DNA of 39,886 nt from a virus: the IMG/VR virus record IMGVR_UViG_3300033997_000582, positions 1 through 39,886 of that record; one strand, written 5' to 3'. The position numbers were made by a program, and so were the translations under genes. The notes below the pieces were generated by a model that did not search any database, was not told the DNA's origin, and worked only from the letters and a program-made list of their open reading frames with translations. Shown here piece after piece: positions 3,703-31,895 of this stretch (within the stretch, counting starts at the first letter, position 1; every line of letters starts with the position of its first letter).

Positions 3703-5474
3703 GAGTGGTGCCGCTCCAGCTTGAGTTGTTGTTCCACCTTGGATGCCCCGCTGCCGCTCGCCGAGATCTCGACCGAGAGGCACAGCCCAACCCAAGCGCC
3801 CGTCTCCTCCGGCACCTTGCAGAGCATGCCGGGCAGGACCAGCCCCACCCCCTTGTCGTCACTGGTGTGGAACAGCGGAATCGTGGTGCCGACGATCTCC
3901 ACATTCCCGCCCTTGCTCAGCTCGTGCAGCCCACGCTGGCGGTTCGCCGGCTGATCCGTCAGCCAGTCGTCATGCACGTCCGCTGTCGGGTTGTCACCGG
4001 CCGTGCCGGCTCGGCGGACCAGCATCGAGCAGCCGTGCGAGGTGCCCGAGGTGTAGCAGGCGTTCCACGCCGGCTGCGGGGTCCACTCGCCATCCAGGCT
4101 GGTCATCATGATCGGCGGGATGATCCGCTCGATGGGGGCATCCGGGTCGCCCCAGGCCCAGGGCGCCGCCTCGTAGGTCGGGCGCACCTCCAGGGTGTCG
4201 GAGTCCCGCGCCGGCCGCACGAAAGCGCCCACGGTCTCGGCAATGCGCGCGATCACCTGCATGGGCGTCTGGCTCTGGTAGCTGAATGCGCCGGGCGGGA
4301 AGGTCCAGTCGGGCGGCCCCACATTCTCGGCATCCCATTCCAGGGTGAAGCCCGTATTCAGCAGCTCGGCCTGGGCCGCCTGGCGAGCGTTGATCGATGC
4401 ATTGTTGAGGGCCGTGCGCAGCGGCGCGTAGGGCGCGGCCAGCAGCTGGGTGCGGCTTGAGCCGTTGATGGCGTAGGCCTCGCTGGCGAACTTGCGGCTG
4501 CGCGTGTAGCGCTCCACCAGGATGACCCAGACCCAGCCGTTGATGCTGACTTCGATCTCCTTGCCGCCCTCCTCGCCCGGCTTGACCAGATCGAGGGCCG
4601 CGCGGGTGAAGATGTCGCAGCTGAATTTCCAGCTGAAGCTGTCCTTGTCCAGGCCGACACGGACATTCTTGACCTCGATGGGCGTACGCGACGGCAGCAC
4701 CACCACGTTGACGATGTTGGCGATCATGTAGGTGTCCAGAATCTCGGGATCGGGTGGCGGCTCGGGCAAGGGCTTCACCGGGCCGGGGTAGTCCACATAG
4801 GGCAAGCCGGTGAGCGGCCCATCCAGGCGCCGCGCCCTGCCCCAGGGCACACGCATGGCCAGGTTGACCCGCCGCGCATCCTGCCACCGCACACCCACGC
4901 CGCCTGTGTCGGTCGGCTGGATGGCGGGCGTTGCCGGCACGTAGCGGAAGTCGAAGAACACCAGCGGCGTGGTGCTCGGCACGTAGGCCTGGCCGCCGAA
5001 GCTGAACCCCAGCGCCTCAGTGCCTGGCACATACAGGCTGGCCTCGATGGCGCGGGCTGAGTCGAAGCGCGGGCCGTACTCATTGGAGCGCCGCGCCCGG
5101 ATGCGGTTGGCCACATCCTTGGTGGCCGGCACCGGGTTGTAGATCAGCACCAGGCGCAGATCGAGCGCACGCAAGGTGCGGTCCCAGCCGGAGGCCAGGG
5201 CCATGTCCCTGCTCGGCACCCAGCCCCACGGCTGCGCGCTCTGCTGGCCGCTCAGCGGATCAGCAATACCCCAGGTCGCAGCGGTGGCCGTGTCGAGCTG
5301 CGGCACCGCATCCCAGCGCATCGCCTTGGCGGCCTGGTCACGGCGCAGGCCATCCCGCCATGGCAGGCGCGGTAACGCATCGCACTTGGCCAGGGCATTC
5401 CAGGGCAAGCCGGCGCCCTGGCGGTCGGCTCGGCGCGCGGCGCTCCACCCACCACCCACTTCAACCGTCAGCAT
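3690..5474 (-). CDS. Phage tail hub / tip-associated protein
   Basis: A 594-residue structural protein from MLTVEVGGGWS. The C-terminal half (about residues 240-590) reads like a tail or baseplate hub: VKNVRVGLDKDSFSWKFSCD, TRTQLLAA-type linker and TPMQVIARIAETVGAFVRP recall gp27/gp44-like hub domains. The N-terminal half is Trp-rich and unfamiliar. Its start overlaps the stop of the gene upstream (TGATG), showing translational coupling. Position between the large tail proteins and the lysis cassette supports a tail-tip role, probably connecting the tail tube to the receptor-binding apparatus. Confidence 0.75.
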   Translation of the reverse strand: MLTVEVGGGWSAARRADRQGAGLPWNALAKCDALPRLPWRDGLRRDQAAKAMRWDAVPQLDTATAATWGIADPLSGQQSAQPWGWVPSRDMALASGWDRTLRALDLRLVLIYNPVPATKDVANRIRARRSNEYGPRFDSARAIEASLYVPGTEALGFSFGGQAYVPSTTPLVFFDFRYVPATPAIQPTDTGGVGVRWQDARRVNLAMRVPWGRARRLDGPLTGLPYVDYPGPVKPLPEPPPDPEILDTYMIANIVNVVVLPSRTPIEVKNVRVGLDKDSFSWKFSCDIFTRAALDLVKPGEEGGKEIEVSINGWVWVILVERYTRSRKFASEAYAINGSSRTQLLAAPYAPLRTALNNASINARQAAQAELLNTGFTLEWDAENVGPPDWTFPPGAFSYQSQTPMQVIARIAETVGAFVRPARDSDTLEVRPTYEAAPWAWGDPDAPIERIIPPIMMTSLDGEWTPQPAWNACYTSGTSHGCSMLVRRAGTAGDNPTADVHDDWLTDQPANRQRGLHELSKGGNVEIVGTTIPLFHTSDDKGVGLVLPGMLCKVPEETGAWVGLCLSVEISASGSGASKVEQQLKLERHHSWPQ

Positions 5475-15004: not shown

Positions 15005-15021
15005 CTACTTTCCTCCGGGCA

Positions 15022-15045
15022 ATAAAAAACCCGCCGAAGCGGGTT
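15022..15045 (-). terminator. Intrinsic terminator upstream of the tape-measure gene
   Basis: On the minus strand AACCCGC-TTCG-GCGGGTT is followed by a T-rich tract, then the tape-measure ribosome binding site (CCGGAGG). This is the same terminator-then-Shine-Dalgarno layout as at 2904 and 10878. Confidence 0.8.
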
Positions 15046-15637: not shown

Positions 15638-16495
15638 CTACGCAGTAGCTGGCAACGTGCTCAGGACGTAGGCATAGGGCCGGCCAACGGTTGAAAGCCG
15701 CGTACGCCGGTAGCCCAGCAGGCCCAGGCAATGCCCTACGGCGGTTTGCGTGCCACGGTCGTTCACCAGGCCTAGCGCCTCGATCACCTGCTGGCTGCTG
15801 AAGCCCTGCGGCCAGTCGTTGGCCACCAGGTGCGCACGCAGGCGCTGCTGCAGCTCGTACTGCTTGCGCTGTGGCTCGGGCAGGTCCGGCCCATCCAGCC
15901 ACTGGCTGGCCCCCAGCTCGGCGGCCAGGTCGATGCCGGTGGCGCGCTGGGCGGCCAGGTTGGCGCGGGTGGCGGCCAGCCGGCGGCTCATGCCCATGCT
16001 GCGGGCGGTGCCGAACAGGGCGCGGAACACCCGGCCGGCGCTCACCATCTCGTCCGCTTCCACATGGGCGGCCATCGGCGCGGGCGCTTGTCCGGCCTGC
16101 GCCGCCGGCATCACGTAGGCGCCATGCTTGCGGATGCTCGGCAGCACCTCGGCGGTGACCCACTTTTTGAAGCGCTTGGCCGAGGCCTTGCGGCTGCGCA
16201 GGATGGCCGAGTACAGGCCGGATTCGTTGATGACCAGCATTTCCTGATCACCACCAAGGGTCGGCACAATCTGCCGACCCTTTTCATCTAAGGGGTACTC
16301 ACATTGTGAGTACCCCCCATGGGGGCGCACTATCTGCGCGCCCTTTTCGTCATCATCCAGTGAGCGACACATGTTGTGCGCGTCTCGATATTCCAGAGAA
16401 CGAGCAACATCAGCAGCGACCCACCACGGTTCACCTTCCACCAGCACCACCCGCACGGCGGCGCCATCGAACGAAAACTCCATGGGCAGGCTCAT
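15638..16495 (-). CDS. BRO-N family phage antirepressor
   Basis: A 285-residue protein with an N-terminal BRO-N domain (residues 1-125: EPWWVAADVARSLEYRDAHN, then VINESGLYSAILRSRKASAK and FKKWVTAEVLPSIRKHG). BRO-N proteins bind DNA and often act as antirepressors that free a prophage from repression. The C-terminal 150 residues are helical and not a familiar KilA-C domain. Residues of the type DEKGxQIVxxxGG occur twice, 21 residues apart, so the canonical domain contains an extra 63-bp tandem copy. ATG 16495 overlaps the stop of the DUF3077 gene (ATGA). It is the second gene behind the c4/cI-like RNA locus, the position ant holds in P1. Confidence 0.88.
   Translation of the reverse strand: MSLPMEFSFDGAAVRVVLVEGEPWWVAADVARSLEYRDAHNMCRSLDDDEKGAQIVRPHGGYSQCEYPLDEKGRQIVPTLGGDQEMLVINESGLYSAILRSRKASAKRFKKWVTAEVLPSIRKHGAYVMPAAQAGQAPAPMAAHVEADEMVSAGRVFRALFGTARSMGMSRRLAATRANLAAQRATGIDLAAELGASQWLDGPDLPEPQRKQYELQQRLRAHLVANDWPQGFSSQQVIEALGLVNDRGTQTAVGHCLGLLGYRRTRLSTVGRPYAYVLSTLPATA
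16256..16343. repeat. Tandem 63-bp duplication forming three consecutive hairpins inside the BRO-N gene
   Basis: Hairpin A is AAGGGTCGGCA (16256-16266) with TGCCGACCCTT (16272-16282). A perfect 12-bp inverted repeat GGGGTACTCACA/TGTGAGTACCCC lies at 16292-16316, centred on one base. Hairpin B is GGGGGCGCA (16321-16329) with TGCGCGCCC (16335-16343), one mismatch. A and B are equivalent positions of the duplicated coding unit, with loops CAATC and CTATC, but their stems differ in sequence while remaining paired. Confidence 0.75.
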
Positions 16496-16773
16496 TGCTT
16501 GGCCCTCAGCATTCCGTCCACCGAGGCATTCACCAGGGCCAGGGTACTCTCCAGCAGGTACACCACCGCCCAGGGCTTGTGGTCATCCCCTTCCATCGCC
16601 ACATCGAGGGCGCCCTTAAGGGCAGTATCCAGCAGCGAGGAGGCATGCTCCATGGCATCCAGCACCGGCACGCCGGCCTGCACGGCGAACAGCTTGTTGA
16701 AGTCGGGCGCCGAGCCACGGAAAGCGCGACTGACGGTAGTGATCTTCGGGTGAAGCGGAACGGGCTTGAGCAT
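16492..16773 (-). CDS. DUF3077 family protein
   Basis: A 93-residue protein (MLKPVPLHPKITTVSRAF) whose central part, FNKLFAVQAGVPVLDAMEHA and SSLLDTALKGALDVA, matches the DUF3077 proteins common in Pseudomonas; their function is unknown. It is the first gene after the antisense-RNA locus. The ribosome binding site region (TATGGAGACCC on the minus strand) lies within the segment complementary to the RNA. It is translationally coupled to the BRO-N antirepressor by an ATGA overlap. In P1 the equivalent slot holds icd, in P4 kil, so a growth- or division-related role is conceivable but purely positional. Confidence 0.82.
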   Translation of the reverse strand: MLKPVPLHPKITTVSRAFRGSAPDFNKLFAVQAGVPVLDAMEHASSLLDTALKGALDVAMEGDDHKPWAVVYLLESTLALVNASVDGMLRAKQ

Positions 16774-16776
16774 GAT

Positions 16777-16821
16777 GGGTCTCCATAGCTGATCTGGAGT
16801 CCGCCACCACTGCGACCAAAC
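16777..16821 (-). promoter_or_regulatory. seqC-like target overlapping the DUF3077 ribosome binding site
   Basis: On the minus strand GTTTGGTCGC (16821-16812) and GCTATGGAGACCC (16789-16777) are complementary, with small bulges, to the antisense segment at 16844-16871. The second block includes the Shine-Dalgarno GGAG. The same sequence can also fold into CTCCA...TGGAG, which would hide the ribosome binding site. Confidence 0.7.
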
Positions 16822-16835
16822 AGAAGGGTGGCGAA

Positions 16836-16917
16836 CCGTGCGCGGGTTGGTCGACCGGGGCTATGGGACCCGGCAGGGCATGAGCCCTCCCACGCACGGC
16901 CCGCCATAACGCGGGCA
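16836..16917 (-). ncRNA. P4 cI / P1 c4-like antisense RNA (candidate)
   Basis: Minus-strand RNA domain. A 7-bp closing stem (16836-16842 with 16893-16899, CCGTGCG/CGCACGG) encloses two smaller hairpins: AGGGC/GCCCT (16875-16888) and CCGG/CCGG presenting CCCATAG in its loop (16855-16873). A further hairpin, GCCCGC/GCGGGC, lies at 16899-16916. The single-stranded or loop segments GGGTCCCATAGCC and GGTCGACCAACCC are complementary to two flanking sites, at 16946-16971 and 16777-16821. This reproduces the seqA-seqB-seqC logic of P4 immunity and the a'/b' pairing of P1 c4 RNA. I recall a similar sequence in P4-like elements, but no covariance search was possible. Confidence 0.78.
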
Positions 16918-16918
16918 C

Positions 16919-16939
16919 AAAAAAACGCCAGTTCGGCGT
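16919..16939 (-). terminator. Terminator inside the antisense-RNA locus
   Basis: ACGCC-N5-GGCGT followed by seven T on the minus strand. It lies between the seqA-like site and the antisense segment, where P4-type immunity uses conditional premature termination. It also stops leftward transcription from the major tail gene. Confidence 0.8.
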
Positions 16940-16945
16940 CGTGCG

Positions 16946-16971
16946 CCATAGCTAACCGGGCGACCAAACCC
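16946..16971 (-). promoter_or_regulatory. seqA-like target of the antisense RNA
   Basis: Minus-strand GGGTTTGGTCGCCCGG and GCTATGG, complementary to the segment at 16844-16865 with one bulge and one mismatch. GTTTGGTCGC and AGCTATGG recur in the same order at 16777-16821, so two target copies flank one antisense copy. Confidence 0.7.
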
Positions 16972-16998
16972 GACCGCTGGACTTACAGCGGCACGAGC

Positions 16999-17027
16999 AA
17001 GGTAAACCCGAACCGGCAGGGCGTCAA
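16999..17027 (-). promoter_or_regulatory. Candidate promoter for the antisense-RNA / antirepressor transcript
   Basis: Minus-strand -35 TTGACG (17027-17022), a 17-bp spacer and -10 TACCTT (17004-16999). The -35 matches five of six consensus bases and the -10 is weak. Transcription would begin near 16992, just upstream of the seqA-like site, as the P4 leader promoter does. Confidence 0.5.
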
Positions 17028-17057
17028 CGATACAGTGATACTGTACCGACTAACGCC
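17019..17057. promoter_or_regulatory. Nested inverted repeat upstream of the antisense-locus promoter
   Basis: The inner palindrome TACAGT-GAT-ACTGTA lies at 17031-17045. An outer pair, GGGCGT (17019-17024) and ACGCCC (17052-17057), surrounds it. It could be an operator next to the -35, or the 3' hairpin of the major tail transcript; there is no T-tract. Confidence 0.5.
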
Positions 17058-31069: not shown

Positions 31070-31099
31070 AAACAGTCCGTAGAGAATGGATGACGGAAA

Positions 31100-31152
31100 T
31101 AGACATTACGTTTATTTCAACGCCATGTCTATACCCGTAAACTTGGTGTTTA
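31100..31152. promoter_or_regulatory. Operator region with three CI/Cro sites
   Basis: Three 15-bp sites fit the consensus TAAAC-N5-GTTTA. TAAAC-TTGGT-GTTTA at 31138-31152 is perfect. TAGAC-ATTAC-GTTTA at 31100-31114 has one mismatch. TCAAC-GCCAT-GTCTA at 31117-31131 has two. The perfect site touches the first base of the cI start codon. A fourth site lies at 31927-31941. Exact promoters for cro and cI were not resolved. Confidence 0.7.
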
Positions 31153-31895
31153 TGAATACATCCGGCCAGCGATTACGCGATCACCTCGACAGACACGGCA
31201 TTTCCTATGCGGAATTTGCCAAGCGCATGGGCGTCGACCCGCAGCACGTGAACAACTGGTTCAAGCGCGGCGTGCCGAAGGCCCGAATATTCGAGGTGGC
31301 TGACGAACTGAAGATCGACCCGCGCGAGCTGGCCGAAGGCACCCCGCAGGCGCCCGCAGACAAAGCCAGACCAGGCATCAGCAATGAAGTCACCCCGCTC
31401 GAACCGCTACACCCGTGGGACAGCAACACCCCACTAGACCCGGACGAGGTAGAAGTGCCCCTTTACAAGGAAGTCGAGATTGCAGCCGGCAGCGGCCGCA
31501 CAGCAGTACGCGCCATTGAAGGACGTAAGCTCCGCTTTTCCTATGCCACCTTGCGCCAGGCTGGCGTAGATCCTGCCAACGCCTTCTGTGCCACCGTCAG
31601 CGGGGACAGCATGGCACCGCTGATCAACCATGGCGCCACCATCGGCGTGGACCGGGGCACCACCAATATCATTGATGGCGAGATCTACGCCCTGGAGCAT
31701 GACGGCATGCTGCGCGTGAAGACTCTCCACCGCCTGCCCGGCGGTGCCATCAGGCTCCGCAGCTTTAACAGCGAAGAGTTCCCCGATGAGATCTACACCC
31801 CCGAGCAGATCGCCGAGCAACGTATCGCCGTTCTGGGCTGGGTTTTCTGGTGGTCGGTGCTTCGATCCCGGCGCGGACCTACCGTTGCCAGATAA
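31152..31895 (+). CDS. CI-type repressor with S24 (LexA-like) peptidase domain
   Basis: A 247-residue prophage repressor. The helix-turn-helix covers residues 5-45 (SYAEFAKRMGVDPQHVNNWF). The C-terminal peptidase domain has the autocleavage Ala-Gly at 112-113 (EIAAGSG), Ser at 153 in SGDSMAPL and Lys at 190 in LRVKTLHR. RecA-stimulated self-cleavage would induce the prophage. ATG 31152 is chosen because MNTSGQRLRDHLDR is the natural start of the helix-turn-helix; there is no Shine-Dalgarno, so translation may be leaderless. An in-frame ATG at 31125 is the alternative. The operator overlaps the start. Confidence 0.93.
   Translation: MNTSGQRLRDHLDRHGISYAEFAKRMGVDPQHVNNWFKRGVPKARIFEVADELKIDPRELAEGTPQAPADKARPGISNEVTPLEPLHPWDSNTPLDPDEVEVPLYKEVEIAAGSGRTAVRAIEGRKLRFSYATLRQAGVDPANAFCATVSGDSMAPLINHGATIGVDRGTTNIIDGEIYALEHDGMLRVKTLHRLPGGAIRLRSFNSEEFPDEIYTPEQIAEQRIAVLGWVFWWSVLRSRRGPTVAR

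Follow-up and report, generated by a model that had tools for sequence, protein, structure and literature searches.

Why would a temperate phage carry an antisense-RNA locus of the kind known from P1 and P4 within its late operon, and what would such a locus control there? The question is raised by a cassette on the minus strand of the virus record analysed here, which was taken in its entirety (39,886 bases, hereafter the window). The phage is temperate and its host is Pseudomonas-like; the window encodes a CI-like repressor (31086-31892, plus strand) and also a CII-like activator. On the minus strand the cassette is preceded by the gene for the major tail protein (PHROG 807 match) and followed by that for the tape-measure protein (PHROG 973 among others), and it comprises, in this order, a palindrome, a weak promoter, an isrK/a1b1-like leader, a terminator-like hairpin, a C4 RNA, a second target site, a DUF3077 ORF and a Bro-N gene. 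The locus is real and well formed as a C4 family member, and its location is unusual. Its reading as a C4-type antisense-RNA repressor cassette is, taken as a whole mechanism, quite probable, and by analogy with known systems the C4 RNA most likely keeps the antirepressor gene silent.

The C4 antisense RNA itself (16824..16911, minus strand, as are all features of the cassette) matches RF01695 over positions 1-87 of the 87 in the model, with 71.3 bits against a gathering threshold of 45 (E 4.2e-12), and is the sole gathering-level Rfam match in the whole record. The segment folds with -55.5 kcal/mol (z -5.29), and none of 200 shuffles was equally stable. Within it lie the b' loop GGGTCCCATAGC (16860..16871), the putative anti-RBS and specificity element, and the a' segment CGACCAACCC (16844..16853). 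Upstream, site A (16946..17005), a c4-a1b1-like or isrK-like leader, holds a1 GGGTTTGGTCG (16971-16961) and b1 GCTATGG (16952-16946), and is separated from C4 by an intrinsic terminator-like hairpin with a T run (16914..16940; hairpin 16940-16924). Downstream, site C (16777..16821) holds a2 GTTTGGTCG (16821-16813) and b2 GCTATGGAGACCC (16789-16777), such that the Shine-Dalgarno (SD) sequence GGAG (16784-16781) lies inside b2, 7 nt ahead of the DUF3077 ATG at 16773. GGTNGACCAACCC occurs a single time in the window, and none of 100 shuffles contained it. The promoter-like sequence TTGACG-17-TACCTT (16999..17027; -35 TTGACG at 17027-17022, TACCTT at 17004-16999) agrees with the consensus at 8 of 12 positions, a level of match whose frequency here is about 0.29 per 300 nt, and a scan with a 9-of-12 rule found no promoter at the locus; its spacing of 17 nt is retained in the related locus of genome G261 (L180) and is 18 nt in that of P. 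indica (L010). One base from the -35 lies an imperfect palindrome, GGTACAGTATCACTGTATC (17029..17047), a candidate operator, of which TATCACTnnAnCGTTGAC is common to G261 (L180), P. indica (L010) and G020 (L077). This TATCACTnnAnCGTTGAC palindrome was not found upstream of the other C4 loci compared, being restricted to the tail-type cassettes and G020, and its place at the promoter suggests a possible added transcriptional control.

The DUF3077 ORF (16492..16773; 93 aa; PF11275, E 4.4e-10) takes the position of icd or orf45, and its stop overlaps the start of the Bro-N antirepressor gene (15638..16495; 285 aa; PF02498, E 2.3e-23; PHROG anti-repressor Ant, E 4.6e-49) in an ATGA at 16492-16495. 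A small ORF overlapping the antirepressor start is a feature of the P1 immI type, and the stop/start coupling overlap is retained in the relatives from P. indica and G020. An initial annotation, made from the bare sequence, had claimed a C4-type antisense RNA with a promoter, sites A, B and C and a terminator, followed by a BRO-N antirepressor, and had proposed a search with Rfam covariance models; the gathering-level match and the co-variation of the a/b sites described below bear out the family assignment, every element lies at its place on the minus strand, with the promoter reaching only 8/12, and the Bro-N gene is present, read via the small coupled DUF3077 ORF.

Read from the sequence, the C4 fold, the a/b sites and their co-variation, the ATGA overlap, the gene families, the cassette boundaries and an empty relative would fit the following course of events. 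The local promoter would give rise to a leader RNA, part of which would end at the intrinsic terminator as a short isrK/SeqA-like RNA, while the rest would read through and be cut to free C4. The a' and b' segments of C4 would then pair with a1/b1 of the leader and with a2/b2 over the DUF3077 SD, blocking translation of DUF3077 and, via the ATGA overlap, that of Bro-N. Titration of C4, for which the short leader RNA, the entry of a mismatched phage or strong late transcription could each be responsible, would allow the antirepressor to be made, and this would act against a CI-type repressor. The cassette moves as a self-contained unit and here lies at the permissive junction of the major tail and tape-measure genes. 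Transcription, processing, repression and the antirepressor target we infer from analogous systems, and an "immunity" role of the locus would likewise be modelled on P1, P4 and Gifsy-1; the second, RNA-based immunity system besides CI that had been claimed for this phage stands as gene content (the CI-like and CII-like genes), while immunity as such is presumptive. The weak promoter, the leader families scoring below gathering and the slight preference of a' for a2 count against this explanation, as does the 1:1 ratio of C4 and target in a long late transcript, which leaves repression by C4 there in question.

The window shares with the c4-icd-ant unit of P1/P7 the C4 fold, the a' and b' segments and a target site that covers the RBS of the small ORF preceding the antirepressor gene. 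It differs in that the small ORF is DUF3077, the antirepressor is of the Bro-N type and the cassette, known here from its sequence, lies in the late tail operon. The action of c4 and its processing by RNase P are summarised in PMC12197685 and PMC5320573. Similarly, isrK-orf45-anrP of Gifsy-1 has a leader with a terminator, a processed RNA segment (predicted in the window) and an AUGA overlap, and the source describes IsrK, STnc1160 as a processed RNA, coupling through the orf45/anrP overlap and the resemblance of IsrK to P4 SeqA (PMC4825925). Unlike Gifsy-1, the window has a DUF3077 ORF whose 93 aa are selected as protein, no adjacent Q-like antiterminator and an isrK score under the cut-off. 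As with the P4 cI RNA and seqA/seqC, B pairs with one upstream and one downstream site; however, P4 regulates replication genes by termination, whereas the downstream gene in the window encodes an antirepressor.

The leader also bears on a different reading, in which IsrK-like activation dominates, so that the short leader RNA opens the DUF3077 RBS in trans and the locus serves as a stress-induced switch for prophage induction and not as an immunity repressor. The isrK model (RF01394) matches at 16919-16992 with an E-value of 6.8e-9 in a 421-base search and exceeds gathering in eight of the 29 related loci scanned, and IsrK of Gifsy-1 activates anrP in trans (PMC4825925). With 46.0 bits, however, the window falls below the isrK gathering threshold of 50, and the same sequence is accounted for as the a1b1 target of C4 (c4-a1b1, RF03163, at 16953-17005; 42.9 bits, below the gathering threshold of 46.7; E 1.1e-9 in the 421-base search). 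We consider dominance of activation possible but unlikely, and both functions may hold together. The isrK and c4-a1b1 models both exceed gathering in relatives such as L008/L010, L077, PAJU2 and PAShipCat1. In the latter two phages (L002, L007) C4 stands directly before the antirepressor gene, with no small ORF in the icd position, and the C4 loci adjoin an O-antigen acetylase gene, as well as tail genes on the other strand.

In the window, the pairing of b' with site C was matched by 0 and that of a' with site A by 32 of 5000 shuffles, while a'-site C (541/5000) and b'-site A (2567/5000) were not significant, and the short queries of this test were picked after the match had been seen. With wider queries, an energy test was matched by 14 (a'-A), 946 (a'-C), 138 (b'-A) and 55 (b'-C) of 2000 shuffles; broad energy windows did not reveal the loop pairing and were abandoned as a pairing test, though their outcome counts against the proposed mechanism. 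Nested co-folding, which counts against it as well, gained only 2.8 kcal/mol for C4 with A and nothing for C4 with C, by a method that cannot express loop-loop pairing. Since the pairings of the window by itself were not all beyond chance, other loci were brought in, giving a set of 103 (18/18 from G001, 16/17 from G004, 36/36 from G032, 26 from other family genomes, six from named-phage or viral-contig records, and the window), in which the b' loop was located by its hairpin or, in 11 loci, by position. The longest Watson-Crick run of b' averaged 7.70 with the locus's own b2/downstream region, compared with 4.43 for the regions of other loci; for the b1/leader region the means were 7.12 and 4.54 (103/103 loci), neither difference being reached in any of 10,000 permutations. 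Some rows are near-duplicates (L008 equals the P. indica locus; G042/G124 and G064/G103/G148 share loops and targets), and therefore the 103 loci are not independent cases. The b' loop of the window forms a run of 7 bases with both its own b1 and its own b2, and BR233a alone among the 102 other loci has a b2 with which it could form a run of that length. For a', the cognate a1 was preferred to the median in 100 of the 103 loci; the preference for the cognate a2 was slight (-12.1 vs -11.1; 61/103 loci beat the median). Within a genome the own target was best or tied for 14/18 loci (G001), 14/16 (G004) and 24/36 (G032), which falls short of establishing full mutual orthogonality. A 6-nt code test, which scored 72 of the 103 loci and excluded 31 (19 without CC in the loop, 11 in which no loop was found and one without GGA), was dropped for the register-free test; the window scored 0/6 in it because its CCC shifted the register. 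The case for the locus rests on the covariance model together with coordinated change across loci. The initial annotation had named, as outcomes that would speak against it, a lack of any covariance-model match and a decay of the pairing between A, B and C in related prophages retaining the genes; the opposite was found, since the model matches and pairing is kept and co-varies, with b', b1 and b2 all differing together between the window and G261 (CATAG / CTATG) and P. indica (CTCTGAC / GTCAGAG at b2).

The relatives also delimit the cassette (15638..17048), whose homology begins, past the end of the major tail gene, at 17048 in L180 and 17047 in L010, and ends at 15638 and 15711, respectively. 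G261 (L180) has the same order of major tail gene (75% identical), C4 cassette and tape-measure gene (46%), with a HIRAN-domain gene interposed; its leader-C4-target RNA is identical to that of the window at 228 of 260 aligned nt, with the same a' and b', and the proteins agree at 39/86 aa (DUF3077) and 199/264 aa (Bro-N). In P. indica (L010) the cassette follows a major tail protein that is only 25% identical and has other neighbours, with a small gene before the tape measure; the cassette of the viral contig L008 is identical to it. In G020 (L123) the cassette is located near integrase and terminase genes, away from tail genes. L009 has major tail (72%), DUF4124 (44%) and tape-measure (43%) genes like those of the window and neither cassette nor chaperone, so that the same gene junction carries the cassette in the window and G261 and lacks it in L009, as is expected of a moron. 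A moron also brings a promoter and terminator of its own, and for the promoter of the cassette the 8/12 agreement with consensus is the only sign. The shared edges, the varied settings and the empty relative identify it as a mobile, moron-like unit. Its place in the late operon between the major tail and tape-measure genes, seen also in two other prophage lineages, is apparently new here: in the literature searched (C4, RF01695, DUF3077/DUF6124), as far as the sources were available, neither a C4 locus in a tail operon nor a link between C4 and DUF3077 was found. An unrelated phage thus carries an RNA-controlled antirepressor of the P1/Gifsy type within its late operon, in a unit that moves as a cassette. 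That this position is unusual and that the tail chaperone is missing had been noted before, and both hold; the absence is not an effect of the insertion, which it predates, because L009 is also without a chaperone.

This position raises the question of whether the element acts on the tail genes themselves, as a late-operon attenuator in which the terminator reduces expression of the tape-measure gene compared with that of the major tail gene, C4 pairing tunes termination and the antirepressor is a passenger. A terminator-like hairpin does lie between the two genes, and the window, L009 and P. indica all have terminator-like sequences ahead of the tape measure, indicating that attenuation is tolerated here. 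However, the gene pair also occurs in L009, where the cassette is missing, the G020 cassette lies away from tail genes, and the pairing sites follow the ribosome-binding site of DUF3077, all of which makes an attenuator very unlikely. As a separate observation, about 35 bp at 15012-15045 (terminator and SD before the tape measure) recur elsewhere in L009 (1958-1992) and L180 (14106-14140), with 91-94% identity. Two long minus-strand ORFs near the G020 cassette (4357-5457 and 7597-8415 of L123) have no Pfam or PHROG match.

The repressor cassette would act first on DUF3077, which is a real protein and more than a leader, since purifying selection acts on it (dN/dS 0.24-0.50 in five pairs out of six, the sixth being saturated for synonymous change). 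Its AlphaFold model is a two-helix hairpin (mean pLDDT 86.6) for which a fold search returned no informative match (96 matches, none at E <= 0.001), and tblastn with DUF3077 against the phage collection found nothing. In 19 of the 20 nearest loci, which made up the scan (L077-L096, the exception being L087; nine further DUF3077 loci, L097-L105, fell outside it), DUF3077 is preceded by C4. Of the 30 PF11275 matches in six genomes, 16 have a same-strand C4 within 1 kb upstream and the remaining 14 have none within that distance, judged against all 142 C4 places. Among 89 proteins directly downstream of C4 (88 from other loci and that of the window; repeats and proteins below 40 aa excluded, some assigned by an ORF rule), 21 match DUF6124, 15 Bro-N and nine DUF3077, and no other Pfam family was among the matches listed. 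The DUF6124 matches are nearly all from G032 (L140-L175), as judged by sequence. Profile alignment relates DUF3077 to DUF6124 (probability 97.1, E 5.7e-11), and two other C4-downstream families had no detectable relation to DUF3077. DUF3077 and DUF6124, both unstudied families, thereby gain a shared and testable regulatory context.

The presence, amid chromosomal genes, of C4 units with DUF3077 or DUF6124 downstream, together with the purifying selection on DUF3077, would also fit a type I toxin-antitoxin-like pair, with DUF3077 as growth inhibitor, C4 as its RNA antidote and Bro-N as secondary; P1 Icd interferes with cell division. In the window and its relatives, however, Bro-N is coupled to DUF3077 and is the better conserved of the two, with dN/dS of 0.19-0.24 in 6/6 pairs, and we regard the pair as improbable. 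That the cassette is a decayed moron, functionless at present, as its moron boundaries and the fast divergence of DUF3077 from G261 (39/86 aa) might suggest, is highly improbable in view of the compensated a/b changes, the intact ORFs and the low dN/dS of Bro-N.

The wider pattern of coded C4 modules with the DUF3077/DUF6124 superfamily is more surprising than the locus itself. C4 is present in 96 of 148 sampled genomes of the Pseudomonas family, and full counts in G001, G004, G032, G073, G080 and G081, two of which belong to the P. indica genus while four were picked for their high C4 number, gave 18, 17, 36, 24, 25 and 22 copies. Many of these copies have distinct b' loops and are dispersed along the chromosome, at 21 (G073) and 17 (G081) places separated by more than 50 kb. 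From Acinetobacter baumannii a large group of C4-like RNAs within a single genome is already known, with many members and variable loops as in the pseudomonads; host targets were proposed there, whereas in the sampled pseudomonads the loops match the adjacent RBS (PMC5320573). Tentatively, C4 RNAs may be more than phage immunity genes, and the free-standing RNA-protein modules built on them may constitute a large, coded class in the family, with up to 36 per genome. Most of these modules would have a b' code of their own that fits the neighbouring ORF, and they would control the DUF3077/DUF6124 superfamily or short Bro-N proteins; some would be fixed beside housekeeping genes, where they would guard against incoming phages and satellites as resident decoys or repressors, or else act as toxin-antidote pairs, and the window cassette would be a phage-carried example. 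The abundance of coded units in some genomes makes such resident RNA immunity directly testable, and cassettes with matching b' codes, such as those of the window and G261, are predicted to silence each other's antirepressor, while the P. indica code should not.

The surroundings of 20 C4 loci in G073 and G081 were scanned for 69 of 77 ORFs within flanks of 1.5 kb. These ORFs belong mostly to chromosomal families; phage-type matches were limited to Bro-N/antirepressor (three), AlpA/excisionase (one) and Sie-like (one), and no terminase, capsid, tail or integrase family was among those listed for these flanks. A nearly identical C4 with a small ORF lies beside fructose-bisphosphate aldolase in both G081 (L113) and G073 (L120), with 94% identity over 1863 bases, and because the same neighbour recurs in two genomes, some C4 loci appear chromosomally fixed.
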